The position numbers and the translations under genes are program-made. The notes beneath the pieces are model-generated. The model did not search any database. It had not been told where the DNA came from and saw only the letters and a program-made list of their open reading frames with translations. A stretch of DNA of 64,000 bases from Clostridiales bacterium. Its GTDB lineage: Bacteria; Bacillota; Clostridia; Oscillospirales; Oscillospiraceae. Position 1 is the first letter of the stretch. Each line of letters opens with the position of its first letter. The stretch lies in contig JALFLH010000019.1 of the NCBI GenBank assembly GCA_022774865.1, positions 1-64,000 of the forward strand, read 5' to 3'. Shown here piece after piece: positions 40,026-64,000 of the stretch.

Positions 40026-43000
40026 TCAGCCCGTCTTTACGAGTTTCACTCCGTCAATCTGGCATGTGGTTCCGCCGGGAGAATTGATATAGAATCCTAT
40101 ATCAACATCGCCGCTTAATGCCAGATTTCCAATCAAGTAGTGCTTCCATTCAGAAGTCTGGTCAATGTTTACATATGTCGTGGTTCCATCACCATTCTGA
40201 ATCTCAGCCCTTGCAATTGTAGGTGCAGTATTGAAACATCTGGCCCAGAATTCCAACTGATATGTTCCGCTTTCTATGGTATTGACCTGATGGATGCTCT
40301 GCTGGTACGCCGAAGCGAGATAGAAGTAAGCCCGCTGTTCCCCTTCACGCGCGGTTTCGGGTGGATTCATGCCGATGCCCTTATCTACACCGTAGGCCAG
40401 TTCCTGCCCGTCCGGATGCCACTGCGTCCACTTGGATGTCTCCCATGTCGGACGTTCAAAGCCCCCGTTATCCAGGATATTCTCTTCAAAACTTGCCGTA
40501 GATGTTCCATTCACGACGACCCGCAATTGATCCAGATTGACATAGCCGCTATTTCCGGAGTCAAAGGTGAAGGCAATCGTATTCTGCCCGGCATTCAGGT
40601 TCAGTGTCGTCTCCCAGTTGCCCCAGATATTCCAATCCGTTCCGAGACTTGCAAACGTTGCGGTTTTTACGAAGCTGCCATTCACATAAGTGTTCAATGT
40701 CTTGGCCGCTCCATTTCCATTGGCATAGCGCAGCGTTACAGAATAGGTTCCCGCTGTCGGAACCGTCACATTACGGAATTCCACACTGGTTCCCGCACTC
40801 TCCAGACCCGCGGCGAAGCCGGAACCTGTGTAGAACCAATGATTGGTTGATCTGGCAGGGCCGTTATGCAGCGCAGCAGCTTCCGCTTCATACGATGCAA
40901 TATCCGGGAAGAACGGCACGAAAACATGGTCGATGTTAAGATACCCGGTATCACCGGCATCCTCGTCGTACAGAATGGTAATACTGTTTGCCCCTGCAGC
41001 GAGCGGCAGATTTTCGGATACCGTTGACCAGGTATCCCAGCTTTCGGTTGGAGCAAACACAACCTGACGCACAAACGTACCGTTCACGTAGATGCTCATG
41101 GTTTTTCCTGCGGAATTTCCATTCGCGTAACGAATCGTAACAGGATAAACACCGGCTGTCTTACCATTTACACGGAACGTTACTGCCGCACCGGCAGTCT
41201 CAAATTTGTCCGCGAAGCCCGTTCCGGTATAGCCAGTGTGATTGGTATTCACGCCAGCCCGGGTCGCTGTTGAGCTGCCCCACAGAGTTCCTTCTTCAGC
41301 CTCATAATACAGCCCTGTCGCAGTCTGCGTCGTTGTACCCGTCGCCACAATGCTCTTTGCCGCACCGGCATTGATCTTAACGTAAGTAACGTCTCCGTAG
41401 ATATCCTTACCGACGGCATAGCCTTCTCCAGATGCCGCGCGGAGGGAAGCAAGATCGTGATATTTGGTCATGTCGCTGCCTCCCAGCCTGACACTGGAAG
41501 CCGCCTTGCCATGAATCTTCACAAGATAAGTTTCATAGCTGGATGCGTAGCTGCCGCTCTTTGCGGAGAAGTTTACGGCAATTCCGGAAGCGCCGTTATC
41601 CTGCGCTGTGATTGTCTGCTTGAAGAACGCGCCGTCCTCATAGTCATAACTGCTTCCGTCATCATCATACAGCAGGAAGGAGGATTGGGTGCTGTCCGCA
41701 AACACATCCACATCCACTTCAGTGACGGCTTCCTCACCGGTGTAATTCAGGGCTTTCTGCGTTGGAATGATCGCGCCCTCCTTGATAAACAGAGGCACAT
41801 CGGTCCAGCTCTCGCCATTTACCGCATACGCAATGTACTGACCGCCTTCGTATACCAGGCCAGTAAAGTAATCAATCCAGGTACCTGCCGGAAGATAGAT
41901 CCACTTGGTCGTCTGATAACGCTCGGTCACAGGCGCCACAAGCAGCCAGTCGCCAAACATCCACGCATCCGTATCGTTTGCCACATTGCTGTCATTCGGA
42001 TAATCAAACAGCAGCGGCTTAACCAGGCCGACGCCTTTGGCAAGGGCTTTCTGCTCATAAGAATAGATATAGGGCAGCAGACGATAGCGAAGCTGGATCA
42101 CGGCTTTGCTGTTTTCCTCCGCCGTAAAGCCATAGTACCATGGCTGGCGCTGATGGTTGAAGTTTCCATGGACACGGAACACGGGAGAGAATGCCGCCAA
42201 CTGCAGCCATCTGGTGTAAAGCTCAGGGGAGGGGTTCTCGATCGTGCCCGTATTCTGGTTGAAGCCGCCGCCATCGGAGCCCCATTTCATCTGACCGTTA
42301 TTGATCGTTGAAAGCATGGTTGCTTTCTGATCATTCAGTCCATTGGTCCACCAGATGTTTTCATCAATGGCAAACTGGGTTCCCACATCGCCGGACCAGA
42401 TGGTAGTGGCGAAGCGCTGGGTGCCGGGATAGTAGTTTCGGGCCGTCTGCCATACGCGAACCGCGTCATTGGTGTAAGCGCGCTGGCCTTCATAAAGCGC
42501 CTGAGAGAGATGCAGCGTCGTAAAGTTTCCAAACCAGTAGCTGGCGGAGCCGGAGGCAACCGTGTCGGTTTCATCGTTCCACCAGCCGGCAATTCCTTTG
42601 TCAAAGGCATCGATGGAATGCTGCCACCACCAGTCACGAACAGCCTGATCATAGGGATCAATGCTGCGCACGGTCACCGGATAGAAATAATCCGTATATT
42701 CAGCATGGCCCGGGTAGAAGAAGTCTCCATCGATCGCGGCCTGTCCCTGCTGCGTAACTGTACCGTCTGACAGCTTTGTCACAATCCGGGGTTTTGTGAT
42801 TCCGATCAGCTTAATGCCCTCCGCATCCATGTTGGTCTTCAGCAAAGAGGTGGCGGCGTCCGGGAAATTATTGGTATTCCAGGTGAACTCGCCATAATTG
42901 TCACTGCCATAGTTTTTCCAGTCATAGTCAATGCCGTAGCTGTCAATCGGGATTCCTTTGGCCCGATAGGTGTCGACCATCTCATACAATTCCGACTGGT

Positions 43001-43880
43001 TGATGCCCCATTCGTAGTTGGAAAACCCAAGCGACCATTCGGGCATCATGGGAGATTCGCCCGTAATGTGCGAATAATTCTCCATGATGTCCTCCGGGTT
43101 GCCCAGCATGATATAATACTCAACGTTTTCTTTGAAATACCTCCGCCCTTCGGTCGTGGTATCTCCGTAGTAGAACTCCATTTTATTTGTTGTGCTGTCA
43201 AGCACCGGATAGCCGCCATCGGAATCAATCAGAATGCCATACCCAGCGGTAGACCACATGAATGGGCCGCCGGAATTGCCCTGCTGCCCGGCCTGAACCG
43301 CAGCGGTCGTATCGTTTCTCAGGAGCTGCCCGTTCCCATCGAAGCAGGCGTAGCTGCTCAATCCATACATATTTTGTCCTGCGTTTCTGACAAAACGGAC
43401 ACCATCGTGAAATACGCCGCCGTCATCCGGTTCCCAGAACAAAACTGTTCCATCCGCCTTTTTCACGGTCATTCTGCAAGGATTTCTCTGGATGGATACC
43501 CGCATAGAACCCGTGGTGATGGTAATTGGATCAGCCGACACATTGATCTGCGCTCCAACCGTTCCCCAAACCCTGTCCGGGTCAATCATCGGAGTGGAAG
43601 CGCTGGAGGCAATTCCATTTGGGCGGTAGTTTACTCTGAGAATGTCATCTTCACATACCCGGATCTCAAGAATATCATCCCCTGTCTCCGCCCCATTATC
43701 AACAGTCAGTGTGAGGACATCCCCGCTGACTGTCGCCGCCAGCACATTGCCTAGTGTTTCCGCGTACGCTTTTACTTCCACAACACCTGCGCGGATGCAG
43801 GCGATTGTCAACACGAACACCAAAAGCAGGGAAATGATCCGAAGCCAGTGGCGATCGCCTGGATGCCATCGAACGTTCAT
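40026..43880 (-). CDS. ctsZ: Secreted GH31 alpha-1,6-glucosyltransferase-like enzyme (CtsZ/6GT type)
   Basis: The 1284-residue protein has a signal peptide (hydrophobic 14-37, cleavage near AYA-E), an N-terminal beta-domain and a GH31 barrel with nucleophile D436 (GWWNDETD) and acid/base D498 (TTIWSGDV). C-terminal modules are two CBM35/CBM6-like domains (starting YYEAEEGTLWG and SYEAEAAALHNG) and a last jelly-roll domain of CBM61/CBM4-like type (DNGGFERPTWETSKWTQW). This order (two CBM35, then CBM61) is that of 6-alpha-glucosyltransferases, and 1284 is the length I recall for CtsZ of Bacillus globisporus C11. Predicted role: moving a non-reducing glucosyl unit of maltodextrin or starch to a 6-OH. 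It is the last gene of the operon. Confidence 0.85.
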   Translation of the reverse strand: MNVRWHPGDRHWLRIISLLLVFVLTIACIRAGVVEVKAYAETLGNVLAATVSGDVLTLTVDNGAETGDDILEIRVCEDDILRVNYRPNGIASSASTPMIDPDRVWGTVGAQINVSADPITITTGSMRVSIQRNPCRMTVKKADGTVLFWEPDDGGVFHDGVRFVRNAGQNMYGLSSYACFDGNGQLLRNDTTAAVQAGQQGNSGGPFMWSTAGYGILIDSDGGYPVLDSTTNKMEFYYGDTTTEGRRYFKENVEYYIMLGNPEDIMENYSHITGESPMMPEWSLGFSNYEWGINQSELYEMVDTYRAKGIPIDSYGIDYDWKNYGSDNYGEFTWNTNNFPDAATSLLKTNMDAEGIKLIGITKPRIVTKLSDGTVTQQGQAAIDGDFFYPGHAEYTDYFYPVTVRSIDPYDQAVRDWWWQHSIDAFDKGIAGWWNDETDTVASGSASYWFGNFTTLHLSQALYEGQRAYTNDAVRVWQTARNYYPGTQRFATTIWSGDVGTQFAIDENIWWTNGLNDQKATMLSTINNGQMKWGSDGGGFNQNTGTIENPSPELYTRWLQLAAFSPVFRVHGNFNHQRQPWYYGFTAEENSKAVIQLRYRLLPYIYSYEQKALAKGVGLVKPLLFDYPNDSNVANDTDAWMFGDWLLVAPVTERYQTTKWIYLPAGTWIDYFTGLVYEGGQYIAYAVNGESWTDVPLFIKEGAIIPTQKALNYTGEEAVTEVDVDVFADSTQSSFLLYDDDGSSYDYEDGAFFKQTITAQDNGASGIAVNFSAKSGSYASSYETYLVKIHGKAASSVRLGGSDMTKYHDLASLRAASGEGYAVGKDIYGDVTYVKINAGAAKSIVATGTTTQTATGLYYEAEEGTLWGSSTATRAGVNTNHTGYTGTGFADKFETAGAAVTFRVNGKTAGVYPVTIRYANGNSAGKTMSIYVNGTFVRQVVFAPTESWDTWSTVSENLPLAAGANSITILYDEDAGDTGYLNIDHVFVPFFPDIASYEAEAAALHNGPARSTNHWFYTGSGFAAGLESAGTSVEFRNVTVPTAGTYSVTLRYANGNGAAKTLNTYVNGSFVKTATFASLGTDWNIWGNWETTLNLNAGQNTIAFTFDSGNSGYVNLDQLRVVVNGTSTASFEENILDNGGFERPTWETSKWTQWHPDGQELAYGVDKGIGMNPPETAREGEQRAYFYLASAYQQSIHQVNTIESGTYQLEFWARCFNTAPTIARAEIQNGDGTTTYVNIDQTSEWKHYLIGNLALSGDVDIGFYINSPGGTTCQIDGVKLVKTG

Positions 43881-43953: not shown

Positions 43954-46900
43954 TTATGTGATTTTGATGTTGTCCAGATTGATTCCCGCGTAACAGTCCG
44001 TATCATACGTGATGCCAATCGTGCTCTTGCCGGCCGGAAGCGTTACCGTTACCGCCACGGTAGACCAGGTATCCCAATCTGCTGTCTTAGCAAGTACCGG
44101 TGCGGATACCCGGCTGCCATTGATGTAAACCGCCCGTTTCGCGTCCTCCGTTCCTGCGCTGTACCTCAATTCCAGCGTATAGGAACCGGCTGCGGGCGCA
44201 TAGACATCAAAGCTCACGGAGTCTCCGCTCTCGGCGAATCCGTCAACGAACCCGGTTCCTTCATAACCGGAATGATTGGTATTGGTACTCACATTTGTAC
44301 CCGCTGCATATTCGGCTTCATAGGGTACCTCACTGGTACCGGTTAATTCAACGGATGTGGTCGTGGCAGAGGTACCGGCGCGGATGATGGCCATATGCTG
44401 TTCCGTATCGTAATACCACCCGGTCGTACAGGTTTTGAACGCGTCAAAATCGGTAAAGTGTGTAATTGCAGCGCCGGCAATCTTTATCTGAGACGGCTCG
44501 GAAGTAAAAACCTGCAAGCTGCGCGCTGAGGTCATTCCGGGAACCTGTATGGTGATTGTCCCATTATCATAGTTCTCCTGAACGGTCAACTGCAGTTGCG
44601 CATTTCCAACATAGTCGTAATAGTCATAGCTGGTGGTGCCCTTTGGGTAAATCCGATAGGTGAAGTTTACATAGCTTTCCGTAGAATTGCCCACCGATTC
44701 ACCGAACTGATAGTCTGCATTGAGGTTCAAGGGAAGAACAGAGCCCGCTTTTACGAATACCGGGATCGCGTCAAGTCCGGCAGAATAAGTGATCAAGCTG
44801 CCACCGGGGCGCTTTGCACCCCAAAACAGGTCAATCCACTCCCCTTCCGGCAAATAGATCAGTTTTTCGGTCTGACCCTCATTTTCAATTGGCGCAACCA
44901 GCAGATTCTCACCGAGCATATACTGGAACTCCATATCATCCGCAGTCGTGTCTCCGGGGAACTCATATGCCATGGACCGCATCATCGGTACGCCTGTTGC
45001 ATTTGTGTACTTCGCCTGATTATACAGATAGGGAATCAGGCTCATTCTGTAGTTTGCGAACTTCCGATAGATATTGATGCATTCCATATCACCGGTGCGT
45101 TCATACATATTCCAGGGTGTCCGCGCAACGCTGGGAGACGGATCGCCGCCCCATTCCGAGTGAAGCTGCATGATGGGGGAAAACGCCGCCTGCGCAACAC
45201 TTCGCTTATAAAGCTCCGTGCTGGGGATCTCTCCGCTGAAACCTGCCAGATCCCATGTGACAAACGGCACTCCGGACATGGATGCGTTCATTGTGGCCCG
45301 CATGGCATCCCGGTAGGCGCTGAAACTGGAGGTCTGGTCTCCCACCCACGCAATGGGATGCTGGCCTGCGCCGGAGCCCCCGGCTCGGAAAAATACGATT
45401 CCGTCCGTGTTGTATTCCTTGACGAAATCAGAATAAGCCTGAACGTACAGATCCGGATACAGGTTCCGAAGTTCGTCGCCCTTCATGCCGTTGGAGGCGG
45501 TAATGTTTCTGCCCCAGACAAACTCGCCGCCGTCGCACTTAAAGCCGTCAATTCCAATTTCTTCCAGCAGATAGGCGCGTTTATTCATCCACCAGCTCAC
45601 TGCGGCGGAATTTGTAAAGTCCGGCATCACCGCATTGCCATACCATCCGCCTTTATTCCGATAAGGTGTGCCTGTCCCATTATCGAGCACATAGCCCTGA
45701 CTGATTGCATACGCCTCATCTGTTGCAAGCTGCTGAATCGGATCGGATGCCGATTTGATCACCGGCAACTGCCAGAGCAGCACCTTGATTCCATTCTCAT
45801 GGAGCGTGTCTACCATGCTTTCCGGGTCCGGCCATCTGCCCGTATAGGTGAAGTCGCTGGACGTAGGAACCCACGTTGCGCTGTGCGGTGTATACTGTGC
45901 ATCGCCCCAGATGTAGAACGTCTCTTCATCCGCCCATGCCTCAATCACCATAGCAGTTGTCGGAATGTGATACTGGTTCGTTTTTGCCACCTGATCCAGC
46001 ACTTCAGACTGCTTATTCCACTCGTTCGCAGAAATCCAGGGGCCAAATGCCCATACGGCGGGCAAAGCAGGCTTTTCAATCACATCGGTATACTTCTGTG
46101 AAATTTCCTTGGGCGTACCGGCAAAGTAATACAGATCCATCCCGGTATTCTTCGTGCCTCCTGCGGTTGCACGAATCGTGGCACGGTTGCTTGCATCCGT
46201 TGCAAGCCGATACTGCACATAATAGGTTGTGTTCAGATAGGTGCCATACCCCCGATTGCTGAAATAGAACGGAATCGGCAGATAGGTCTTATTTCCCTGA
46301 TTCAGGTACCAGTTGACTGTATAGATATCTACATTATTTCCACGCTGGTTCAGGGTATCATAACGCATCCCAAACCCGGCAAACGATTCGTCGCCTGGGG
46401 TATTCAGGTTTTGTTCCACCGCATTGATATAATTGGAGCCATTGGTGCGGAAGGCCAGACCCCGGTAATCACTCGTCTCCTGCGTCAACCGTGTACCCTC
46501 CCCGTCATAAATCTCCATGCGGTAAGGGTTCTTATGGATTTTGATCTTGATATCCGGACCGTTTATCCAAATACTGTCAGAGCCGGACTGGTCTACCGTA
46601 TAACTCGATAAACCGGTGGCAAAGCTGTCGCTGCCGAACGGCTCAAACTGCATACGGAAATAGCCTGTTCCGGGGAAAGCAATACTGATCCTGGGCTGAA
46701 TCGCAGACGCCGTCGATGCACAGGTCAGTTCCACACGGTTGCTGTAATTCACAACATTCGTCACTTGCGTCACATAATCCCAGTCTGTCACAATGAATGT
46801 GTATGGCCCCGTTGTCTTTTCATTCGCGCCGTTCTGGTTCGCATGGAGCGTATATGTGACCACATCACCTTTTGCGAAGCTCCCCATGTTTGCTTCCCAA

Positions 46901-47235
46901 TGGGTGTCATTGCCACTGTTGTACTTCCATTCCGCGTTGACCACCGGCTGCTCCACGCTGTTTTTCGTCCAGGTAACCCAAACCGCGTCTCCATCTTCAA
47001 TCGGCCAGGTTTTGGACTTCAGGTAAACCGTATCGCCTGCCACTGGATCCCGTGGATACCGTTCGCAGTCGTTGCTTTCTACCTCCGTGCCGCCATAGAG
47101 ATCATCCCAGCCGGTGGGTTCATGATAGATTCCTTCCACCGCATTCACTACCGTAAACGTTCCTGCCATCATTGCCGTGATGAGAATGAAGGCAACGATG
47201 CGGAAAACCATCCGTCTGCCGTGTTTCATTGTCAT
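43954..47235 (-). CDS. ctsY: Secreted GH31 isomaltosyltransferase-like enzyme (CtsY/IMT type)
   Basis: The 1093-residue protein has a signal peptide (residues 9-32, cleavage near VNA-V) and a mature N-terminus EGIYHEPTGWDDLYGG...RYPRDPVAGDTV, as in isomaltosyltransferases. The GH31 barrel follows, with nucleophile D568 (GFKCDGGEF) and acid/base D633 (AWVGDQTS). A CBM35-like module ends it (about 960-1093, YEAEYAAGTNVSTNTNHSGYEGTGFVDGF). The length equals that of CtsY as I recall it. CtsY transfers isomaltosyl groups to 3-OH and closes the cyclic tetrasaccharide cycloalternan. A second ATG (47229) has better ribosome-site spacing, giving 1091 residues. Confidence 0.85.
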   Translation of the reverse strand: MTMKHGRRMVFRIVAFILITAMMAGTFTVVNAVEGIYHEPTGWDDLYGGTEVESNDCERYPRDPVAGDTVYLKSKTWPIEDGDAVWVTWTKNSVEQPVVNAEWKYNSGNDTHWEANMGSFAKGDVVTYTLHANQNGANEKTTGPYTFIVTDWDYVTQVTNVVNYSNRVELTCASTASAIQPRISIAFPGTGYFRMQFEPFGSDSFATGLSSYTVDQSGSDSIWINGPDIKIKIHKNPYRMEIYDGEGTRLTQETSDYRGLAFRTNGSNYINAVEQNLNTPGDESFAGFGMRYDTLNQRGNNVDIYTVNWYLNQGNKTYLPIPFYFSNRGYGTYLNTTYYVQYRLATDASNRATIRATAGGTKNTGMDLYYFAGTPKEISQKYTDVIEKPALPAVWAFGPWISANEWNKQSEVLDQVAKTNQYHIPTTAMVIEAWADEETFYIWGDAQYTPHSATWVPTSSDFTYTGRWPDPESMVDTLHENGIKVLLWQLPVIKSASDPIQQLATDEAYAISQGYVLDNGTGTPYRNKGGWYGNAVMPDFTNSAAVSWWMNKRAYLLEEIGIDGFKCDGGEFVWGRNITASNGMKGDELRNLYPDLYVQAYSDFVKEYNTDGIVFFRAGGSGAGQHPIAWVGDQTSSFSAYRDAMRATMNASMSGVPFVTWDLAGFSGEIPSTELYKRSVAQAAFSPIMQLHSEWGGDPSPSVARTPWNMYERTGDMECINIYRKFANYRMSLIPYLYNQAKYTNATGVPMMRSMAYEFPGDTTADDMEFQYMLGENLLVAPIENEGQTEKLIYLPEGEWIDLFWGAKRPGGSLITYSAGLDAIPVFVKAGSVLPLNLNADYQFGESVGNSTESYVNFTYRIYPKGTTSYDYYDYVGNAQLQLTVQENYDNGTITIQVPGMTSARSLQVFTSEPSQIKIAGAAITHFTDFDAFKTCTTGWYYDTEQHMAIIRAGTSATTTSVELTGTSEVPYEAEYAAGTNVSTNTNHSGYEGTGFVDGFAESGDSVSFDVYAPAAGSYTLELRYSAGTEDAKRAVYINGSRVSAPVLAKTADWDTWSTVAVTVTLPAGKSTIGITYDTDCYAGINLDNIKIT

Positions 47236-47300: not shown

Positions 47301-47972
47301 TCAGTGCAATTTCCGTTCCTGATCGGGTGATACCGGGACAGACAATTGCCGAATCAAATCATCAGGCTTTTTCAGCGGGTAGGTTACGCCCTCCGACTGA
47401 GCCGCCCGGCCTACCGCCGCCACCTGACACCCCAACGCAAGCGCCGCCTGAACGCCGCTGACCGCGTCCTCCACCACCACACAGTTCGCATATCCCACCC
47501 CCAGCGCATCCGCCGCCTTTTGGAATACCTGCGGATCCGGCTTTGAGCGGGTGATCTGGCTGCCGTCCACAATTACAGTGAAATAGCCCTTCAATCCAGT
47601 TTTTTCCAGAATCAGCGGCGCATTTTTGCTGGAGGACGCAACCGCTGCGGGGATATTCTGCGTTCGCAGCCACGCAAGGAGCTCCACCACGCCGGGTATT
47701 ACATCCTCCCGTGTCATTCCCGTCAGCAAACTGACATAGTTTCTGTTTTTCTCTTCAGCAAACGCGGCAAGCTGATCCGCCGTCAGTTCCACGCCTCCCT
47801 GCGCGGCAACAATTCGCGCGCTCTCCAGCCGGCTGACGCCCCGAACCAGGTCGCCTGTGCCGTCCCCAAATGGGATTCCCCATTGCGCGCAGGTCTTCCG
47901 CCAGGCCGCCGTATGATAGCGGTCGCTTCTTGTCAGGACGCCATCCAAATCAAAAATCACAGCCTCAATCAT
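47301..47972 (-). CDS. pgmB: Beta-phosphoglucomutase
   Basis: The 223-residue HAD protein has the nucleophile motif FDLDGVLTRSDRYH (Asp 8, general acid Asp 10), the cap-domain RGVSRLESARI, motif II VASSSKN, and motif III/IV KPDPQVF...VVEDAVSG. This pattern is specific for beta-phosphoglucomutase, which converts beta-glucose 1-phosphate to glucose 6-phosphate. Beta-G1P is the product of GH65 phosphorylases, and a GH65 gene heads this locus. ATGA overlap with the lipoprotein GH31 gene. Confidence 0.95.
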   Translation of the reverse strand: MIEAVIFDLDGVLTRSDRYHTAAWRKTCAQWGIPFGDGTGDLVRGVSRLESARIVAAQGGVELTADQLAAFAEEKNRNYVSLLTGMTREDVIPGVVELLAWLRTQNIPAAVASSSKNAPLILEKTGLKGYFTVIVDGSQITRSKPDPQVFQKAADALGVGYANCVVVEDAVSGVQAALALGCQVAAVGRAAQSEGVTYPLKKPDDLIRQLSVPVSPDQERKLH

Positions 47973-50677: not shown

Positions 50678-50679
50678 GG

Positions 50680-54772: not shown

Positions 54773-56810
54773 GATAACGCACCTCCTCAAAGACCTCGGA
54801 AAGGAAGGATAGGAGTTCTCTCCAAAGAATATAGAGAACGATCGCCGCAAGAATGGCCACTACCATAAAGAACAGCGTCAGCAGAATATTGGCAACCGTC
54901 TTTCGCAGGTTGTACACATGCGCTTCTTTGATGCTGATAAAGATCAGGACGCCTGTATAGCCAAGGATCAGGAAGGCCAGCAGCCGGTAGATAAAGAGCT
55001 CTGTCAGGGTGAACGCATGGGAAAGCAGCGTCAGCGCGGGCCAGCAGAGAATAAACGCGGACAGGGAATAGGCAAAGCAGACATAGACTGCCCGGAAGCT
55101 GCCTTCCCCATCATGGATGGCGCTGATCAGATAGCTGCCAATCAGAAACAGGACGGACGGGACGATGATGATCAGCAGAATCGCAACGGGATCATTGTCG
55201 TACGAGTAACCGCCGCCAAAGACAAAGGAAGTCAGGCCACGGCACACCATATAAACAGCGATCGCGGTAACATAGAGAATTGTTGCTGCCGGTACGCTTC
55301 CCCGTCTGCCTGTTTTCAAATAATATACGCCGTCAATCGGATGCCGGAGGAAATAGGAAACATCGCCGGTCAGTTCCTGCAGCAAGCGATGCTTCCGGCA
55401 GCATATCTCATACCGTTCCCGAATTGTCTCTTTCCAGCCATACCGTTTATCCAACAGATTCAAAGCAAAACACAGCGCGGCAAACAGGATGACCCCAATT
55501 AAAATTCCTTCCATGTGGGATCGCATCCATGCGCTTCTCGTTTCCCAGAAGCAGTCCGAATAGCCGGGCGCATATTCAATTTCCGCGAAGTGTTCTGCAG
55601 CCTCTTCATATCTTCCCAACTGAAACAGCGCCTTGGCATACCCCAAATTGGACATATAGGCATTGGGATTCATCCGAAGGATTTCCTTCCACCCGGCGAG
55701 GCTTTCCTCATAGCTTCCCCCTGTGAAGTCCGCTTCCGCTTTGTGCAGCAGCCGGGCATATTCCGTCGGATACCAGATCTGGATGACGCCGCGTTCTTTA
55801 TCCAGAATGTATAAATTGCCTGCTTCATCCGCCTCAATTGCGCTGACAACGGCTGTCAGGCCATTGCGGTCTGTTTTTTTGGCTTCACCGCCGAATTCAA
55901 GGAGAAACTCGCCTTCCTCATTGAATTCATCAATCCAGCCGGAAACCGAAACGACGTAGAATGTGCCGCCGGGCAGCACCGCCACATCCGCGTAGTCGTC
56001 AAGCCCCCAGATACTGTTATCCGCGTAAATGTTGACGCCCGCCATATTCAGTTTTTTGATCGCGCGCTTCGCGTCATTCTGCGTGACCGAAAACACCATA
56101 TCAGAATCCGAAACATCCAGAGCCACGATATTGGGTGGGGTTCGGAAGGTCATCTTTGCTTTCTGTTCATCCGTATAGAAGATCTTTTGAAACCACTCAA
56201 CCGCGCTCAGCCCTTTGGTTTTGTTCGCGCCGAAGAATCCGTTAAAAGTTCCGTTTTTATCGAACTGCAGGATACCCTCATAAGTACCTTCACTGATTAC
56301 AAACAGGTTCCCATAGCTGTCCAGATCCACCTTCTGTGGTTTATAGGGGCTTGTTCCGTAATAAACCTCTGCCGGGCGGGTCAGACACCGGGATACCGTA
56401 TAATCCGGCGCAAAAATCACAACCTGTTCCGCTCCATAATCCGCGACATAGATATTGCCGTTTCCGTCCACGCTGATGCCGGTCGGTTTCTTCAGTTCTT
56501 CCTCGCCAAAGGTCTCAATCCTGCCGGTGTCGAGGGAGCAAACCACAATCCGCCTGTTCCCGGTATCCGCTATGTACAACGTTCGCCCATCCAGAAACAT
56601 ATCTTCCGGAGAATTTAACCCGATGCCGCCAAGATAGGTTCCCGCAGGGAGATAGGCGTCCATAGTCGGAAGAAGCTTGGACTGGTCGGCCGACATCGTA
56701 AAGGTGTAGGCGGTTCCCTCCATCGCGTATCCGGGCACCGCGCTCACCAGCGTCAGGCAAACCGCGCAGGCGAGTAAAAAAGCAACACGCACAATTCGTT
56801 TTTGGTTCAT
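54759..56810 (-). CDS. NHL-repeat/TPR/YIP1 membrane protein
   Basis: The 683-residue protein has a signal peptide (to about residue 29), then an extracellular NHL-type beta-propeller (about 40-360: PEDMFLDGRTLYIADTGNRRI, PTGISVDGNGNIYVADYG, EADEAGNLYILDKE). TPR-like repeats follow (about 355-425, LGYAKALFQLGRYEEAAEHF), then one helix and a YIP1-type domain of five helices (about 500-665). This combination joins surface sensing or glycan binding to a membrane domain. It usually accompanies DUF5696 and sugar ABC genes, and its biochemical role is not known. AGGGAGG precedes the start. Confidence 0.78.
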   Translation of the reverse strand: MNQKRIVRVAFLLACAVCLTLVSAVPGYAMEGTAYTFTMSADQSKLLPTMDAYLPAGTYLGGIGLNSPEDMFLDGRTLYIADTGNRRIVVCSLDTGRIETFGEEELKKPTGISVDGNGNIYVADYGAEQVVIFAPDYTVSRCLTRPAEVYYGTSPYKPQKVDLDSYGNLFVISEGTYEGILQFDKNGTFNGFFGANKTKGLSAVEWFQKIFYTDEQKAKMTFRTPPNIVALDVSDSDMVFSVTQNDAKRAIKKLNMAGVNIYADNSIWGLDDYADVAVLPGGTFYVVSVSGWIDEFNEEGEFLLEFGGEAKKTDRNGLTAVVSAIEADEAGNLYILDKERGVIQIWYPTEYARLLHKAEADFTGGSYEESLAGWKEILRMNPNAYMSNLGYAKALFQLGRYEEAAEHFAEIEYAPGYSDCFWETRSAWMRSHMEGILIGVILFAALCFALNLLDKRYGWKETIRERYEICCRKHRLLQELTGDVSYFLRHPIDGVYYLKTGRRGSVPAATILYVTAIAVYMVCRGLTSFVFGGGYSYDNDPVAILLIIIVPSVLFLIGSYLISAIHDGEGSFRAVYVCFAYSLSAFILCWPALTLLSHAFTLTELFIYRLLAFLILGYTGVLIFISIKEAHVYNLRKTVANILLTLFFMVVAILAAIVLYILWRELLSFLSEVFEEVRYRVFP

Positions 56811-56824: not shown

Positions 56825-57751
56825 TTACTTCATACCGGAGTGGGACATGGTATTCATGACACGGGACTGGAGGATCACGAAGAGAATCAGATTTGGCAGG
56901 AACATGATGAGCGTGGCTGCGGCCTGCATTCCAAGACCCGCCACCGCGTTTCCTGCCAGTTGGCCAACCATGGCATTGGCATTACCCGAGGCCTGCGTCA
57001 AGGTGGACATATAGAAGGAAAAGCTCTTGAGCGCTTCGTTATTGATGTAGTAATTCGACGCTTCCATGCTGTTCCAGGAAGCCTGAAACGCCAAAATCGC
57101 AACGGTTGCCAACGTCGGTTTGATATTGGGCAGGACAATTTTCCCAAGTATATAGAAATCCCCGGCTCCATCCAGTCTGGCGGCTTCGATCATCTCATCC
57201 GGCAGGTCGTCAATAAACTGCTTGACGAGATACAGTCCCACCGGCATGGACAGCATCGGAATGATATGCGCCCAGATACTGTCCACCATGCCCAGGCGAT
57301 GCACAATGATGTATCTGGGAATGGCAACCGCGGCGGAAACAAACATCAGTGCCGCCTCATTGATTCCGAACAGGAAATTCTTCAGTCGATAATTCTTCTT
57401 CGACATACAATACGCGGCCATGGTTGTGATCATCAGGGTGAAGAACACAACCGCCAGCGTTGTCAGAACGCTGTTGAACAGATACCGGCTCATGGGAATC
57501 GCCTTGTTGGCGGAAGTCGCCATCAGGTTCTGGAAATTCTGAAGCGTGGGACGCAGCGTATAGAATTTGGGCGGATAATTGAGCAGCTCGTCCAGCGGCT
57601 TAAACGCGTTAAAGAAGATGAACACGATGGGAAGCCCCATCAGAATCGTAACCGGAATCAGATACAGGAAGAATTTAATCTGGGACCGGTCGAAGTGCTG
57701 CGGATTGATACCGATGACCTGTAATCGCTTGGGTTTTCTCATGCTGCTCAC
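56825..57751 (-). CDS. Carbohydrate ABC transporter permease, MalG type (first pair)
   Basis: The 308-residue protein has six helices and the EAA loop IEAARLDGAGDFYILGKIVLPNIKPTL. It is clearly diverged from the second MalG-type protein at 50680, so the locus encodes two distinct importers. The ATGA overlap with the MalF-type gene couples their translation. Confidence 0.94.
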   Translation of the reverse strand: MSSMRKPKRLQVIGINPQHFDRSQIKFFLYLIPVTILMGLPIVFIFFNAFKPLDELLNYPPKFYTLRPTLQNFQNLMATSANKAIPMSRYLFNSVLTTLAVVFFTLMITTMAAYCMSKKNYRLKNFLFGINEAALMFVSAAVAIPRYIIVHRLGMVDSIWAHIIPMLSMPVGLYLVKQFIDDLPDEMIEAARLDGAGDFYILGKIVLPNIKPTLATVAILAFQASWNSMEASNYYINNEALKSFSFYMSTLTQASGNANAMVGQLAGNAVAGLGMQAAATLIMFLPNLILFVILQSRVMNTMSHSGMK

Positions 57752-58698
57752 CCCTTTTCGGCGAAGAGTTTCTTCGATAGCTGCGACACGCCCCAGACGA
57801 TGATCAGGAGAATCACAGAAAGCGCCGCGCTGTACCCCATTTCATAACGGACAAATGCGTATTCCTCCGCATGGGTCACGATCAGTTGTCCGGCATAGCC
57901 GGGCGTTGGATTCGCGCCCGAGAGCTGGACGCCAATGCTGCCGTTCTGGAAGGCGTTGACGATGGCCATAATGGCGCCGAACATCATATGGGGCTTGATG
58001 GCAGGGATCGTTATGTAGATGATCTCCTGAATCCGGTTTCGAACCCCGTCAATATGGGCTGCCTCATACAGTTCCTTGTTGACATTCAGAATACCGGCCA
58101 GCATGGAAAGGAAACCGATTCCCATGCTGCTCCACAGGGACACGATAATCATGATCATCATCAGATATCTGGAATCTGACAGCCAGGTAATCGGACTTTG
58201 GATGACGTCCAGCTTCAACAGCAAGGCATTCAGATATCCCACCTTGTCGCCGGCGAAGAAAACCTGCCAGACGGTGGACAGCATGATGCCTGCGGTCATG
58301 GACGGCAGATAGAGAATGATCGCCATGACCGTCCGGGGGCCTTTGGGAATCTGGGCCAGTGACCAGGCCAGAAAGAACGACAGAAGATAGCCGCCCACAC
58401 CCACAATCACGGAATAGACAATGGTGTTGGGAATCGCGAATTCCGTAAATGTGTTATCATTGGTCAGAATATTGATGTAGTTTTCCAGACCCACAAAATT
58501 CGGCTTTTCGATGGAGTTAAAATCCGTAAAAGACAGCGCAATGGCGATGATAACCGGAATTATGATAAACAGGATAAACAGGATGACAAACGGCGCCTGC
58601 ATATAGAATACCGAGTGACGGTCAACATGCTTCTCCAGGGGAGAAACGATTTGCCGGAGGGAGAACGATGCCTCTTCCCTTTTCTCCTGTAGTTTCAT
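57748..58698 (-). CDS. Carbohydrate ABC transporter permease, MalF type (first pair)
   Basis: The 316-residue protein has six helices and an EAA loop YEAAHIDGVRNRIQEIIYITIPAIKPHM. A basic amphipathic N-terminus (about 30 residues) precedes the first helix. The start overlaps the stop of the giant binding-protein gene (ATGA), which suggests they form one transporter. Confidence 0.94.
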   Translation of the reverse strand: MKLQEKREEASFSLRQIVSPLEKHVDRHSVFYMQAPFVILFILFIIIPVIIAIALSFTDFNSIEKPNFVGLENYINILTNDNTFTEFAIPNTIVYSVIVGVGGYLLSFFLAWSLAQIPKGPRTVMAIILYLPSMTAGIMLSTVWQVFFAGDKVGYLNALLLKLDVIQSPITWLSDSRYLMMIMIIVSLWSSMGIGFLSMLAGILNVNKELYEAAHIDGVRNRIQEIIYITIPAIKPHMMFGAIMAIVNAFQNGSIGVQLSGANPTPGYAGQLIVTHAEEYAFVRYEMGYSAALSVILLIIVWGVSQLSKKLFAEKG

Positions 58699-61583
58699 CG
58701 CGCGGCCTCCTCTCTTTGGGCAATCAACTGGTCGATCAGGTGGATATTATAATCCCTGACCTTTTTCCCGTCCTTGTCCAGATATCCGAATTCTGTCAGC
58801 TTCCGCTGAATCTCCCGATTGGAGGCAAGGGTTGCCTCATCGATTCTCGCCTGGAACGGCTCGCCCTCCGTTACAATGGCAATCCATGCGTTCGACACCT
58901 CCCGCTCCAGGATATAGCTGGCCGGATGACGCAGCGCTTCCTTCTGCCATGCCCACTGTTCCAGAATCACTTTCTTGTGTGCCAGCGGGTAAGACATTCC
59001 GGCCAGCGCCACATGGTTGCCGGTATTCCAGATATAGTCAGGCCCGTACTTCATCTGCAGGTCCGTCGCGTATTTTAGTTGCGTCTCCGAGGAAAGCCAC
59101 CACTTCAGGAAGCGATACGCCTCCGTTTTTTTCGTCGAGTTTGAGAAAATCATGGATGACGTGGCGTCGGCTGACCAGTAGCGGCAAATTGTGCCGTCGG
59201 CCTGCTCCGTTCCCGGAACGAGCGCAATGTCCCAGCGCCCGTTCAGCTCTGGCGCGCCCACCTGGAGCTGCAGGTAGGTCGAGAAGTTTGACACACCGAT
59301 CGGGACGCTTCCCGATCGGAACGCATTGAAAAAGTTCGGGATATTCTGGGCAAGTCCGTAAACCTGGTACAGATCCACCATTTCCCGGAGTCCCCGGATG
59401 GTATTGGGATCGCCAAAATTGGCGGAGAACCCATCGTCGGAATAATAGTCGCCGCCGTTCTGGAAGATAAAGCCGCCGGTTGCCTCAAAGCTCTTATAGC
59501 CCACGTTATTTGCCAGCGGCAAATTGAAATTCATGGCGTTTCGATGGAGCACCGGCATCATAGCCTTTACATCCTCCCAGGTATCCGGCACTTCCAGCCC
59601 AAGGCTGTTCAGAATATCCGTGCGGTAGAACAGCACATAGAATTCCTGGGTTTCGCTGGCTCCGTAAACACCATCCTCGTAAGCCATGGGCGCCAGTGCC
59701 TGAAGATTGTATTCCGCGCCGTACCAATCCAGAAAATCCTCAAACTCCAGCAGGTTTACAGCCATGCCGCGCATGGCAAATTCCGCCGGCCGGTAGTAGC
59801 TCAAGCCCAGCGCGATGTCCGGATTACTCCCGGTCGAATTCGCCAAAGTGATCTTCTTTTCATCCGGCATGATGGAAAAGCTGACCTCGATTCCGGTTTC
59901 CGCAGTAAATTCATCGGCAGTTAACTGCCGAAGCGCCTCCACGTACTGGGACGGCTTGTTGATCCATACGGTCAGGGTATCCTGCTCATTGCCCACATCC
60001 ACTGCTTCGTTCATATCGTCGGAAAAGGAATACAGGAACTGCTTGATTCCGGTCGCCATATCCGCGAGGAATCCGGCGGAGGACGCGGGCAGCTTCGCGT
60101 TTTCCCCATGGAGGTAGATACAGTCAATACTCAGATTCTGTTCGTAAATATCCGTCAGGGTCAAAGCAGCCAACTGCGCCGCAGAGCTGGAATCGTCGCT
60201 GAGCAGGCTCAGCTTATTGGGAATCTCCCTGGGCTTTTCCGCCAGCCGCTCCAGATTCTGAACCGCCAGCATTAAATCAGAGACATAGGCCGGTTCCATA
60301 CCGCCAATGTCCTTCAGCGTGTCATAAACCGCGGTCAACCTGGCCGCCCAGTCATGGAGCCGATCCAGAATATCCGGCATATACTGCAGGATATCCCACG
60401 TACGGTTGGTGTCCACCCCTGCGCTCTCGTTGGAATTGTTGCCTTTGATTCTCTTTAATGCAATGCCAGTATCGTTAATCTCATTCACGACAGCCATCAG
60501 TTCCTGATACGGCGCTTCCATGGCACCGGCAGTGACTTCCAAACAGATCAGGTGAACGCCTCTGGTCAGATAAACGCCCGTTTTCAGTGTTTCAATTTGA
60601 TATGTATTGATGCCGGTATACGGAAATCCCACATCCCGCAGCTCCGCATAGGGCACATTGCCGTCAATTTCAATGGTTCGATAAGCGCAGCCGCCGGTTT
60701 TCTTCGGCTGGCTGTACTTAAAACTCAAAAAGTAGATCCCGTCCTCCGGCGCCTCCACCTCATAGTAGAGCTTCTGCCCCATCTGTTTGTTGGATTCGTC
60801 CGCGGTCGCGTTGATCAGCTTCACATAGGGGCTGGCAGGAGAAACGGATGGATTTGGAACATTGGTTCCCCGAATGGAACTGTCGCTTTTCGCGCGGTAG
60901 TCCTCACCCTGAATGGTCAGGTACGCGCCGGAATAGGCCTTGGCGTTTTGTAAGGTGGAGAGATAATCCGAATAGGATCGATCAGGCCGGGGTGCGACCG
61001 CATATATTCCATACAGGAGCAGCCCCTGGTTCTGCGGCCGGACGGTGATCTCCACTTCACCGGCCGGCAAATCAAATGACAGCGGAATGCCGGAAAAAGA
61101 CTCGTATTCTTTCAGAAAAGAGGCCGCGCAGGGAAGCTGGTACTGTTCCGGCAGCACTTCATTTCCATACCGGTCTGTCCTGATTCGGGTAATATCATCC
61201 GCCCACAGGAACGGAAGCGTGCTGGTAAAACCGGCTGCGCCAACCGTGAAATCAACCGGATTTTCAAACAGGTTCTTCTCCGGAGCGGCATAAACCACGG
61301 CCATGAGATATTCTCCCGGATTGCTCATCCGCAGAGAAACGGAGGCCGTTTCTTCCGCTTCAATATACAACCCATCGGGAAACTCCGTCTTCGCTTCGAC
61401 CGCATCCTGAAAATCCAGCTGTCTGGCAGTCACTTCCTCATCAGAAAGCAGATAGGTTCTCCCGAGCATTTCTTCCGCACTCAGGTTGGCTGTTTCCCGA
61501 TGCACGATGACCGCAAACACCGCCAGCACCACAAGGCAGATGATGAGCAAGGCGCTTATTATGGTTAAAGTGATTCGTTTCAT
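58695..61583 (-). CDS. Giant membrane-anchored solute-binding protein with N-terminal CBM-like domains
   Basis: The 962-residue protein has a single N-terminal helix (residues 5-28) without a lipobox, so it is membrane-anchored. Residues about 50-190 and 210-360 are two beta-sandwich, carbohydrate-binding-like domains (YLTIQGEDYRAKSDSSIRGT; LYYEVEAPEDGIYFLSFKYS). A helical spacer (about 390-510) follows, then a family-1 solute-binding fold (about 540-960: EFTAETGIEVSFSIMP, SNPDIALGLSYYRPAEFAM, VPDTWEDVKAMMPVL). Usual SBPs are 400-550 residues. It may hold an insoluble or large glucan near the importer. GGGGAGG precedes the start. Confidence 0.85.
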   Translation of the reverse strand: MKRITLTIISALLIICLVVLAVFAVIVHRETANLSAEEMLGRTYLLSDEEVTARQLDFQDAVEAKTEFPDGLYIEAEETASVSLRMSNPGEYLMAVVYAAPEKNLFENPVDFTVGAAGFTSTLPFLWADDITRIRTDRYGNEVLPEQYQLPCAASFLKEYESFSGIPLSFDLPAGEVEITVRPQNQGLLLYGIYAVAPRPDRSYSDYLSTLQNAKAYSGAYLTIQGEDYRAKSDSSIRGTNVPNPSVSPASPYVKLINATADESNKQMGQKLYYEVEAPEDGIYFLSFKYSQPKKTGGCAYRTIEIDGNVPYAELRDVGFPYTGINTYQIETLKTGVYLTRGVHLICLEVTAGAMEAPYQELMAVVNEINDTGIALKRIKGNNSNESAGVDTNRTWDILQYMPDILDRLHDWAARLTAVYDTLKDIGGMEPAYVSDLMLAVQNLERLAEKPREIPNKLSLLSDDSSSAAQLAALTLTDIYEQNLSIDCIYLHGENAKLPASSAGFLADMATGIKQFLYSFSDDMNEAVDVGNEQDTLTVWINKPSQYVEALRQLTADEFTAETGIEVSFSIMPDEKKITLANSTGSNPDIALGLSYYRPAEFAMRGMAVNLLEFEDFLDWYGAEYNLQALAPMAYEDGVYGASETQEFYVLFYRTDILNSLGLEVPDTWEDVKAMMPVLHRNAMNFNLPLANNVGYKSFEATGGFIFQNGGDYYSDDGFSANFGDPNTIRGLREMVDLYQVYGLAQNIPNFFNAFRSGSVPIGVSNFSTYLQLQVGAPELNGRWDIALVPGTEQADGTICRYWSADATSSMIFSNSTKKTEAYRFLKWWLSSETQLKYATDLQMKYGPDYIWNTGNHVALAGMSYPLAHKKVILEQWAWQKEALRHPASYILEREVSNAWIAIVTEGEPFQARIDEATLASNREIQRKLTEFGYLDKDGKKVRDYNIHLIDQLIAQREEAAR

Positions 61584-61614
61584 AGACGCGATCCTCCCCG
61601 GATACTGGGTGCCT

Positions 61615-61649
61615 CCGCCCGATTACCGGCTGAGCCGGTAATCGGGCGG
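61615..61649 (-). promoter_or_regulatory. Strong intercistronic hairpin after the sugar-binding lipoprotein gene
   Basis: A 16-bp perfect stem, CCGCCCGATTACCGGC/GCCGGTAATCGGGCGG, has a 3-base loop. It lacks a T-tract on the minus strand. It lies between the SBP and downstream transporter genes, the usual place for a stabiliser giving extra binding-protein mRNA. Confidence 0.75.
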
Positions 61650-61673
61650 GCTTTGATTGGATAAATCTGCTTC

Positions 61674-63185
61674 TCAGCCGACTTTCTCGTTGAAAATCTT
61701 CAGTTGCTCCTTGAGCGATGCATTGACAATGGAATCAATCTGTCCTGCCACATCGGCGGCATTGGCCTTTCCTTCCCGGACGGAATTCAACAGCGACCAG
61801 ACTTCGTCGTTGAAGATGTTGTTGTAGCCGGGAACAATCTTATTGATGTCGCCGCGCATGGAATGCTCCAGACTCTTGTACAGTGCCATCAGGCCCTCGG
61901 TCACATTGGGGGACTGCTCGAACTTGGCCAGCACATCGGGATGCTGGGTGCAGGGAATGAACCAGGTCTTGATGTACTTGGTATCTTCACCGGCGGTATC
62001 GCCATTGGCGCGGGCAGCGAAAATGTCCAGTCTCTGCATATTGCCTTCCACACCATAGGTCAGCCACTTCAAAAGCTGGAACGCCGCATCAGGGTCAGCG
62101 CAGGTGCTGGTCAGGTAAGCGCAGTCAACATGGATGGGGGTGTAGGTGGGCGTATTCTCGTCCACACGGGGGTAGGGCCAGTAGTCCCAGTTGACCTGGC
62201 ACTCGGCACGCATCCAGTTGTCATTCCAGGTTGCGTTGGTGCACAGCAGGGCCATACCATTCTTGAAAGTGTAGTGGTTGTCATCCTTACCGGCTTCGCC
62301 AAATTTGGCCACGTATTCGGAATCCAGAGAAGTGGTGCCGTCCTCATTCTTGGGGAACCGCATGGACCAGGCCTCCAAGCCGGGGATTGCCCGCAGCTCA
62401 GCAAGCTGATTCATGGCAGGTACCCACTTGTTGGTGAAGTCGAAAGACTGATTGACAAAGTCATACGCCGGATAGAACAGGCCGTCCGCCTGCGCGGAGT
62501 AAACCTGATCCCAATCTTCCAGTGTGGCGGCGGCGCAGGTATCCGCGGTAATCGCTTTTTTGCAGATGTCAATGAACTCATCCACTGTCCAGTCGTAACC
62601 GGGCTTTTCGATGTTCAGCGCCTCCAGCATATCCAGGTTCATGGTGATGCCCATGGCGTTCATCTGGCAAGGCAGCGCATACAGCTTACCGCCGTAAACA
62701 TAGGGGTCGGTCATGCCGCTGGGAACATACTCCGATTCGGGATCGGCGAAGAAATAGTCATCCAGAGGCATCACAAAGCCGCTTGCAACCTCAGGGGCAA
62801 AATCATTCCAGTCCAGCCACATCAGGTCGGGCATACTGTTCGCCGCGGCTTTCTGCGTCAGATACTCGTTGAAAGCGCCGCCGGTGGAACCGGGGAAGGG
62901 TTCCTCCACGACTTCGATGTTGGGATACTGCGCGCGGAACGCTTCCAGCACGGGCTGAATTTCCGCGATTTCCGCCTCGGGATACGCGATGGTGACGGAG
63001 CCCTTCATCTGGTACACATCGGTGGACGGTGCCGCCGTGGACGGATTATCGGGTTTCTGCGTGCCGGTGGCGGTGGAGCCGGGCTTGGTGTCTTCCGGCG
63101 GAGCAGCCGTATCGCAGCCCGCCAGAATACCGAAGGCCATCACCAGTGCCATGACCAGTGCCAACAGGGATTTCCAGTTCTTCAT
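61674..63185 (-). CDS. Sugar-binding lipoprotein, family-1 solute-binding protein
   Basis: ATG 63185 has GGAGGAAAAAG before it. The 503-residue protein has a lipobox (LAGC, Cys 24), a Thr/Pro/Ser linker and an extracellular carbohydrate-binding fold (FRAQYPNIEVVEEPFPG, PDLMWLDWNDFAPEVASGFVMPLDDYF, GGKLYALPCQMNAMGITMNLDML, many aromatic residues in the cleft region such as NWDYWPYPR). Predicted ligand: an alpha-gluco-oligosaccharide or cycloalternan. It lies between the GH65 gene and the giant SBP gene, near the head of the operon. Confidence 0.92.
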   Translation of the reverse strand: MKNWKSLLALVMALVMAFGILAGCDTAAPPEDTKPGSTATGTQKPDNPSTAAPSTDVYQMKGSVTIAYPEAEIAEIQPVLEAFRAQYPNIEVVEEPFPGSTGGAFNEYLTQKAAANSMPDLMWLDWNDFAPEVASGFVMPLDDYFFADPESEYVPSGMTDPYVYGGKLYALPCQMNAMGITMNLDMLEALNIEKPGYDWTVDEFIDICKKAITADTCAAATLEDWDQVYSAQADGLFYPAYDFVNQSFDFTNKWVPAMNQLAELRAIPGLEAWSMRFPKNEDGTTSLDSEYVAKFGEAGKDDNHYTFKNGMALLCTNATWNDNWMRAECQVNWDYWPYPRVDENTPTYTPIHVDCAYLTSTCADPDAAFQLLKWLTYGVEGNMQRLDIFAARANGDTAGEDTKYIKTWFIPCTQHPDVLAKFEQSPNVTEGLMALYKSLEHSMRGDINKIVPGYNNIFNDEVWSLLNSVREGKANAADVAGQIDSIVNASLKEQLKIFNEKVG

Positions 63186-63306
63186 TACTTTTTCCTCCAA
63201 TTTCATAATTTTTATTATTAACCCCTTGCGCATTTTTCGGCCGTTCGGCGCCTGCTCCCCGGGCAAAGCACCAAACGTCAAAGAAAGGGGTCAATTACAC
63301 GGTTAT

Positions 63307-63319
63307 TTTAACGGTTAAA
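63307..63319. promoter_or_regulatory. Operator-like palindrome at the GH65 stop
   Basis: TTTAAC-C-GTTAAA (minus strand) is a 6-bp perfect inverted repeat with one central base, overlapping the GH65 stop codon and 122 bases before the SBP start. It resembles LacI-type operators but has no confident -35/-10 pair beside it. The rest of 63186-63314 shows no gene. Confidence 0.3.
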
Positions 63320-64000
63320 TTTCGACAAATATTTCGGGTTTCTGATTCTTTCGAATCGTGATCCGATGGGGGATGCCCTTATGGAAGACGCGGTAGCGCA
63401 TTTCTTCAATTCCCGGCGGCAGCCGGTTCTCCACATTGAGAACACCATTACATATGGATAAGCCCCCGAAACCGAGCACCATGGCCTGCCATGTCGCCCC
63501 CAGAGAAGCTGTATGAATTCCCTCCCCGGCGGTGTTCTTCATCACATTTTTTAAATCAAGGAACAAGGACTTCTCCAGATAGTGGACTGCTTTTTCCTCA
63601 TAGCCCAGTCTGGCGGCTACCAAAGCGTGAATTCCGAAGCTCAGGGTAGAATCATGAAGTGTCTTTGGCTCATAGTAATTCCATGCGGCCTCCACTTCAA
63701 CTTTGCTGAACTTTTCCGGGCAGAGGGCCATGTACATCAGCACGGCCGGCTGTTTCAGAACCTGATACCTTTGCAGGCGGTCGAAGCCGATCTTGTGGTA
63801 AAGCGGTGCGTCGTCGTCCTTATGAGCCTGAATATCCAGCGGCTCCAGTAGATCGAAGGTGGCGTCCTGTTTCCAAAGCTCCCCCCTGCGCCGAAGTACA
63901 ACCTTCGCCGCAATGTCCATCCACTTTTCGGTTTCCTCCGGCTGAAACCCTGTTTTCTCAGCCAGCACAGTCCAGTCCTCCGGATAGGTTTTTTCCATCC
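63315..64000 (-). CDS. GH65 disaccharide phosphorylase, C-terminal part (5' end outside window)
   Basis: The frame is open to the window edge; the ATG at 63998 is an internal codon. The visible 228 residues carry the C-terminal GH65 hallmarks: KQPAVLMYMALCPEKF, an (AW)NYYEPKTLHDSTLSFGIHALVAA block, GEGIHTASLGATWQAMVLGFGG (phosphate-side His), and a final beta-strand domain. The catalytic Glu is upstream, outside the window. GH65 phosphorylases split maltose, nigerose, kojibiose or trehalose to beta-glucose 1-phosphate plus glucose. pgmB and the alpha-1,3/alpha-1,6 product chemistry here make nigerose or a related glucobiose a reasonable guess. Confidence 0.9.
   Translation of the reverse strand, partial: MEKTYPEDWTVLAEKTGFQPEETEKWMDIAAKVVLRRRGELWKQDATFDLLEPLDIQAHKDDDAPLYHKIGFDRLQRYQVLKQPAVLMYMALCPEKFSKVEVEAAWNYYEPKTLHDSTLSFGIHALVAARLGYEEKAVHYLEKSLFLDLKNVMKNTAGEGIHTASLGATWQAMVLGFGGLSICNGVLNVENRLPPGIEEMRYRVFHKGIPHRITIRKNQKPEIFVEI

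Follow-up and report, generated by a model that had tools for sequence, protein, structure and literature searches.

We analysed a stretch of 64,000 nucleotides from a clostridial genome (hereafter the window: bases 1-64000 of contig C12, in an assembly of 1.87 Mb and 35 contigs that is 96% complete), in which a first-pass annotation had proposed a locus for the cyclic sugar cycloalternan. The locus belongs to a block of 16 minus-strand genes spanning about 31 kb (C12:40026-70987), which extends past the end of the window. We consider it probable that this block makes cycloalternan from starch dextrins, imports the ring, opens it and recovers part of the glucose as sugar phosphate. The synthesis and import of cycloalternan and the privatisation of starch by this route are already published, in Listeria and for the cousin sugar CMM, but the breakdown branch differs here. 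What appears to be new is a phosphorolytic branch containing an enzyme like those of glycoside hydrolase family 125 (GH125), and this branch seems also to travel alone.

In the proposed pathway, a 6-alpha-glucosyltransferase (6GT) would transfer glucose to produce isomaltosyl ends, and a cycloalternan-forming enzyme (CAFE) would join two isomaltosyl units through alpha-1,3 bonds and close the ring. The solute-binding protein (SBP) encoded at 61674-63281 would import the ring together with one of two permease pairs, powered by an ATPase encoded elsewhere. Inside the cell, a GH31 enzyme would cut one alpha-1,3 bond of the imported ring, the GH125-like enzyme would trim the terminal alpha-1,6-glucose, and a GH65 enzyme would release beta-glucose 1-phosphate by phosphorolysis, either of the exposed alpha-1,3-linked glucose or of isomaltose itself; a beta-phosphoglucomutase would convert this product to glucose 6-phosphate. 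If true, this adds an energy-saving, phosphorolytic branch to the cycloalternan pathway and places in that pathway both a GH125 clade and a GH65 clade whose fingerprint is unmatched.

The synthetic half consists of two adjacent GH31 open reading frames (ORFs) at 40026-43880 (1284 residues) and 43954-47235 (1093 residues), whose positions and lengths are as the first-pass annotation had described them and which have GH31 and CBM35/CBM6 modules. The 1284-residue protein, which by eye has a secretory N-terminus, finds its best PDB match in 5x7o, which we take to be the 6GT of Paenibacillus 598K (1596 bits over residues 32-1282, nearly full length). The 1093-residue protein best matches Lmo2446 (1061 bits over residues 29-1092), whose entry 5f7u is titled cycloalternan-forming enzyme. 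The catalytic aspartates singled out earlier lie in recognisable motifs, D436/D498 within GWWNDET and WSGDV in the 6GT and D568/D633 within GFKCDGGE and WVGDQ in the CAFE. We built two GH31 trees, of 29 and 27 rows. The eight 6GT rows, among them the window protein and the product of a Listeria gene downstream of an internalin gene, presumably Lmo2444 by its position, all fall on one side with 100/100 support in the 29-row tree, and the clade is kept in the 27-row tree. A CAFE side with 97/93 support in the 29-row tree unites the window CAFE, Lmo2446, the CAFEs of locus L018 and of two further 6GT genomes (G523, same genus; G727, same family), the lipoprotein GH31s described below and one Nonomuraea GH31. 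The full-length match, the catalytic Asp pair and the clade thus identify a 6GT, and the end-to-end match to a solved enzyme, together with the clade in one of the two trees, identifies a CAFE at the level of sequence. The clade placement foreseen by the first-pass annotation therefore held in both trees for the 6GT, but only in the larger tree for the CAFE.

Two further GH31 enzymes are encoded in the block. The first of these, at 47969-50683, is a predicted surface lipoprotein of 904 residues (lipobox LAAC, by eye). It forms, with its L018 counterpart, the sister group of the CAFEs of the window and of L018 (100/99 in both trees); it retains both catalytic motifs and would be a cell-bound CAFE-type enzyme. 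The other lies beyond the window and is cytoplasmic, with 868 residues and no signal peptide seen by eye. In the 29-row tree it groups, with moderate support, on the cycloalternan-degrading side, apart from the general alpha-glucosidase-like Lmo0183. The reference rows on this side include Lmo0182, whose gene matches the PDB entry of that name and which we take to be a cycloalternan-degrading enzyme (CADE), and 5x3i, which presumably has the same role. A third, 5f7s, is treated as TpCADE because 5I0G, which bears that name in the available text of PMC9061262, has the same length and a near-equal score.

The catabolic genes behave as a cassette. GH65, the GH125-like gene, LacI, an SBP, two permeases and the cytoplasmic GH31 occur together in the four genomes in which we found the GH125-like protein at 52% identity or more (window, G523, G235 and G024), accompanied in three of the four by beta-phosphoglucomutase, and in the 27-row tree the four cytoplasmic GH31s form one clade with a single further row, L036/L048 of genome G867 (100/99). 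In G523, GH65 and the GH125-like gene are on one strand and LacI, the SBP, two permeases, the cytoplasmic GH31, beta-phosphoglucomutase, CAFE and 6GT are on the other; its proteins are 25-60% identical to their window counterparts. G235 and G024 belong to two other families. G024 carries beta-phosphoglucomutase as well; the 39.5 kb examined of G235 showed none. Neither genome yields a 6GT match in the class sample (same genomes by handle number), and the CAFE search returned the cytoplasmic GH31 alone from G024, and from G235 the cytoplasmic GH31 with three weaker GH31s of 118-224 bits. Because 6GT and CAFE are missing there, G235 and G024 look like scavengers that have the eating half without the making half. 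Only these two are independent finds of the cassette by way of the GH125-like protein, since G523 was found through its 6GT and the window was the starting point.

At E <= 1e-100 the GH125-like protein was found in 4 of 391 genomes of the class, namely the window genome, G235, G024 and G036, the last with a lone homologue of 33-34% identity. A phylum sample searched at E <= 1e-80 contained it in 25 of 274 genomes, the window counted, and none of the other 24 homologues (L069-L092, 31-42% identical to the cassette protein) has a panel GH65, GH31, LacI or permease beside it in stretches of 5.5-20 kb, some of them cut by contig ends. A tree of 38 rows unites the four cassette proteins with nine database proteins picked by hand in one clade (SH-aLRT 100) and leaves all 25 lone proteins outside it. 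Profile and fold both place the protein in GH125, and its alpha-glucan context argues that it would act on glucosides.

The GH65 gene extends to contig position 65489, so that the window holds its C-terminal part (63315-64000). Its nearest solved relative is a kojibiose phosphorylase (332 bits). The available text of PMC8537180 names six specificity positions in this family (64, 392, 394, 402, 416 and 585, CsKP numbering) and gives the fingerprints EEAPxx, KV[MF]NES, TRIGPP, DQGQDE and FAITQA for kojibiose, maltose, trehalose, trehalose-6-phosphate and alpha-1,3-oligoglucan phosphorylases, respectively. The window enzyme carries D64, M392, S394 and G402, has no residue aligned at 416, and carries G585; each of these five activities was considered for it and set aside, as this combination fits none of those fingerprints. 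D64, W391, M392 and the gap at 416 are found in 69 of 69 GH65 homologues compared, and a WM...EQC...HITAD stretch is common to the four cassette enzymes, which are otherwise 36-53% identical. As described in the accessible part of PMC8626586, GH65 enzymes use a general acid Glu and a phosphate site of Lys, His and two Ser, and a GH65 hydrolase has Pro-Ala, Phe and Met at the phosphate-site places. The Glu, the Lys, the His and the first Ser are kept in all 69 homologues. Because the hydrolase replaces these residues, phosphorylase seems the better reading for the window enzyme, with one Ser-to-Thr change. Nigerose cannot be assumed as its substrate, and a full-text search, which left most subscription journals outside its reach, returned no paper with the words "isomaltose phosphorylase". 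The beta-phosphoglucomutase gene lies at 47301-47972 (TIGR01990, 197.4 bits against an NCBIfam cut-off of 189.4).

Several observations weigh against a phosphorolytic cycloalternan pathway. The 27-row tree leaves the CAFE side unresolved, and the branch joining the cytoplasmic GH31 to Lmo0182, TpCADE and 5x3i has moderate support (89/85 in the 29-row tree, 88/74 in the 27-row tree). Both SBPs of the block are only distantly related (E 0.00012 and 0.00025) to Lmo0181, the CNN-binding protein of Listeria according to the available part of PMC7676653. Solved structures of GH125 relatives are those of alpha-1,6-mannosidases, the GH65 fingerprint matches none of the characterised-enzyme motifs printed in the accessible text of PMC8537180, and the second phosphate-site Ser is Thr in 68 of the 69 homologues. 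Unlinked pairs of GH31 and GH125-like genes also exist, because three of the 24 control genomes (G863, G932 and G1006) hold a degrading-side GH31 on another contig. Finally, the cassette's natural substrate could be a related sugar, because the cassette of G235 and G024 is not accompanied by 6GT or CAFE. The same two genomes favour an alternative in which the cassette acts on nigero- or isomalto-oligosaccharides or some other imported fragment of an alpha-1,3/1,6-glucan and stands beside the cycloalternan pair by chance; a nigerose phosphorylase cluster with a GH31 and an ABC transporter is indeed described for L. phytofermentans in the available part of PMC9061262. We think this unlikely, because the cassette adjoins the CAFE-6GT pair in two genomes of one genus despite low identity and a different gene order, and because its GH31 falls on the degrading side of the tree, apart from the alpha-glucosidase-like Lmo0183.

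Somewhat less likely still is that the block encodes essentially the Listeria pathway, with the ring fully hydrolysed, the GH125-like protein acting as a plain alpha-1,6-glucosidase, and GH65 and beta-phosphoglucomutase serving an unrelated disaccharide from starch such as maltose or kojibiose. The Listeria importer locus does contain hydrolase genes only and no GH65, and GH65 enzymes acting on maltose and kojibiose are well characterised in what is available of PMC8537180. However, the D64/M392/[SA]394/[EG]402 fingerprint with its short loop 3 corresponds to neither the maltose motif (KV[MF]NES) nor the kojibiose motif (EEAPxx), and GH65 is retained in the cassette in four of four genomes. 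The extracellular pair might instead make branched or linear isomaltosyl or alternan-like oligosaccharides, given that a 6GT occurs without a neighbouring CAFE in loci L016 and L017 and that the block includes a CAFE-like lipoprotein; this is improbable, as the CAFE matches the structurally solved ring-forming enzyme end to end and a GH66 enzyme stands in CAFE's place in L016 and L017. The reading that we prefer, synthesis and uptake of cycloalternan followed by phosphorolysis, had been cast in the first-pass annotation as a privatisation strategy, in which shared starch becomes a ring that most neighbours cannot use. Uptake plus phosphorolysis remains plausible and the cassette recurs, but the privatisation idea is weakened because G235 and G024 have the catabolic cassette without 6GT or CAFE. 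If our reading is true, the question of public versus private goods becomes testable: because producers (window, G523) and cassette-only genomes (G235, G024) differ in gene content, co-culture could show whether a cyclic sugar does keep starch private.

The cycloalternan pathway of Listeria monocytogenes (Lmo2446/Lmo2444; Lmo0179-0184) was reportedly described by Light et al. in 2016; we assign lmo numbers other than 2446, 2445 and 0182 by position, and presume that its terminal alpha-glucosidase is a GH13 enzyme. Like the window, Listeria has CAFE and 6GT homologues, an ABC importer and a GH31 on the degrading side. Unlike the window, its genes form two separate loci, an internalin gene sits between CAFE and 6GT, and the pathway ends with the GH31 Lmo0183 and a GH13. 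In the Listeria catabolic locus an alpha-glucosidase of TIGR02403 type accompanies ROK, permeases, an SBP and two GH31s, and neither Listeria stretch has an annotated GH65, GH125-like, DUF5696 or lipoprotein CAFE-like gene. The available text of PMC9061262 describes how 6GT and CAFE make cycloalternan and how CADE degrades it, with its phosphorylase in another cluster than the cycloalternan one, and that of PMC7676653 covers the make-import-degrade pathway of Listeria and the advantage of a cyclic sugar that others cannot use. The CMM pathway of Arthrobacter globiformis resembles the one proposed here in converting starch to an extracellular cyclic tetrasaccharide that is imported and broken down within the cell, but it uses GH13 enzymes and an alpha-1,4/1,6 ring (PMC7676653, same part). 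The nigerose phosphorylase cluster of Lachnoclostridium phytofermentans shares GH65, GH31, an ABC transporter and LacI with the window, but its GH31 is a GH31_u1 alpha-1,3-glucosidase, and the text available to us names no GH125-like protein there (PMC9061262, likewise).

No terminal GH13 of the Listeria type (Lmo0184) occurs in the block. Across the genome, 96% complete, there are seven PF00128 stretches in six genes; the best scores 243 bits against TIGR02403, compared with 728 for the Listeria gene, and by eye is a predicted lipoprotein. One GH13 gene, L007 (G000:C15:6288-7502), has a lipobox-like start and adjoins an apparent ABC permease gene (by eye), and its product is a candidate surface supplier of starch dextrins. 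Elsewhere, Deinococcus sp. KNUC1210 combines ROK, permeases and an SBP with a GH15 and a GH31, and G1121 and G963 have GH15, permeases, an SBP and a GH31 from the same side of the tree. The finishing-enzyme slot thus appears to be filled by GH13, by GH15 or by the GH125-like protein plus GH65, where we infer that all of these loci serve cycloalternan.

The 6GT itself is rare. Searches at E <= 1e-100 gave a single positive genome among 391 sampled from the class, three among 400 from the family and two among 136 from the genus, and each of these counts includes the window's own genome. We compared eight 6GT loci (window, L015, L016, L017, L018, G523, G727 and Listeria). In four of them (window, L018, G523 and G727) the gene immediately upstream of 6GT is CAFE; GH66 replaces it in L016 and L017, the L015 contig begins at 6GT, and Listeria has the intervening internalin gene. 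The 6GT therefore follows a swappable cyclase, a GH31 CAFE here and a GH66 in L016 and L017. The CtsY/CtsZ genes of Bacillus globisporus are, we believe, an IMT-6GT pair like that of the window. In Paenibacillus sp. 598K the 6GT is 56% identical to that of the window and also directly downstream of the cyclase gene, but the cyclase is a GH66 and not a GH31 CAFE; we take this GH66-6GT pair to make cyclic isomaltooligosaccharides. Locus L016 (1-25465), from an Oscillospiraceae metagenome-assembled genome, has GH66 and 6GT, a CBM21 protein and a DUF5696/YIP1/permease module, and is likely the cyclic isomaltooligosaccharide counterpart of the window locus. The type of cyclase beside the 6GT, GH31 or GH66, could serve as a simple predictor of the ring that a genome makes. 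We tentatively propose, as a possibility that falls short of an even bet, that these systems are a kit of swappable parts, in which a constant 6GT stands behind a GH31 or GH66 cyclase and the catabolic slot takes GH13, GH15 or the cassette, with a GH125 clade of alpha-1,6-glucosidases and a new GH65 phosphorylase acting on isomaltose or nigerosyl-glucose; stand-alone cassettes would belong to scavengers of the ring sugar of other bacteria.

The DUF5696/YIP1 importer module accompanies both cyclase types, CAFE in the window and the GH66-6GT pair in L016. The module is therefore not specific to cycloalternan. The DUF5696 protein (52508-54772, 754 residues in the form used, signal peptide by eye) matches PF18952 with 499 bits, and its AlphaFold2 model has a predicted GH129-like fold; this Pfam family without assigned function is likely a glycoside hydrolase relative. 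No paper with the term DUF5696 was found in the full-text literature within reach, which excludes most subscription journals. The neighbouring NHL-repeat/TPR/Yip1-like protein (54759-56810) has TPR and Yip1 matches under their cut-offs. Around these two genes lie the permeases, all PF00528: A (57748-58698) and B (56825-57751), and C (51621-52541) and D (50680-51624). A 962-residue SBP is encoded at 58695-61583, with a profile match to an SBP domain at about residues 548-847, and the 535-residue ORF of the other SBP (61674-63281) probably starts in reality at an internal ATG (by eye). The G867 locus mentioned above consists of LacI, GH31 and an SBP. This SBP, truncated where the contig ends, is 48% identical over 166 residues to the 535-residue ORF, which points to the SBP of 61674-63281 as the cassette's own. 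Between the two SBP genes is a GC-rich hairpin (61584-61673, by eye) that could determine how much binding protein is made relative to the other proteins of the block.

A candidate LacI operator, TTTAACCGTTAAAA, overlaps the GH65 stop codon ahead of the SBP gene (63306-63319, minus strand, pattern match), and TTGAACCGTTAAAA is located just ahead of the LacI gene (L006:10992-11005). Over the 64 kb the first site is the sole match with at most one mismatch, where 0.23 are expected and 19 of 100 shuffles contain at least one; L006 holds two matches to the pattern, and none of its 200 shuffles had as many. These odds overstate the case, because both stretches had been seen before the pattern was written. 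Similar palindromes (TTTAAACG[CG]TTAAA and kin) are found between divergent genes of G523 and G235. This suggests that one regulator may govern both the catabolic unit and the uptake-plus-synthesis unit.

The block reads LacI, cytoplasmic GH31, GH125-like, GH65, SBP (535-residue ORF), SBP (962 residues), permeases A and B, NHL/TPR/Yip1, DUF5696, permeases C and D, lipoprotein GH31, beta-phosphoglucomutase, CAFE and 6GT; beyond the window are the remainder of GH65, the GH125-like gene, the cytoplasmic GH31 and LacI, and the block reaches contig position 70987. The first-pass annotation had called the locus complete-looking, and the genes that it listed exist: beta-phosphoglucomutase, GH65, two SBPs, two permease pairs, DUF5696 and YIP1 are all present by profile, Yip1 below its cut-off. 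However, it overlooked the third GH31 (47969-50683), GH65 is cut by the window end, and the block continues. Its picture of an operon coupled by 4-base overlaps holds at 5 of 12 junctions in the window (6 of 15 across the whole block, longest-ORF starts used), but not for CAFE and 6GT, whose genes are preceded by gaps of 65 and 73 bases, respectively. The call of a spore-former is consistent with a Spo0A_C match in this genome (157.6 bits). Immediately past the downstream end of the block, a convergent plus-strand ORF (39705-39962) reads by eye as an alpha/beta-type small acid-soluble spore protein. Farther away, a T-box leader (33243-33477) is followed downstream by an NlpA-type lipoprotein gene (35279-36082) and then an AzlC/AzlD pair (36749-37764).

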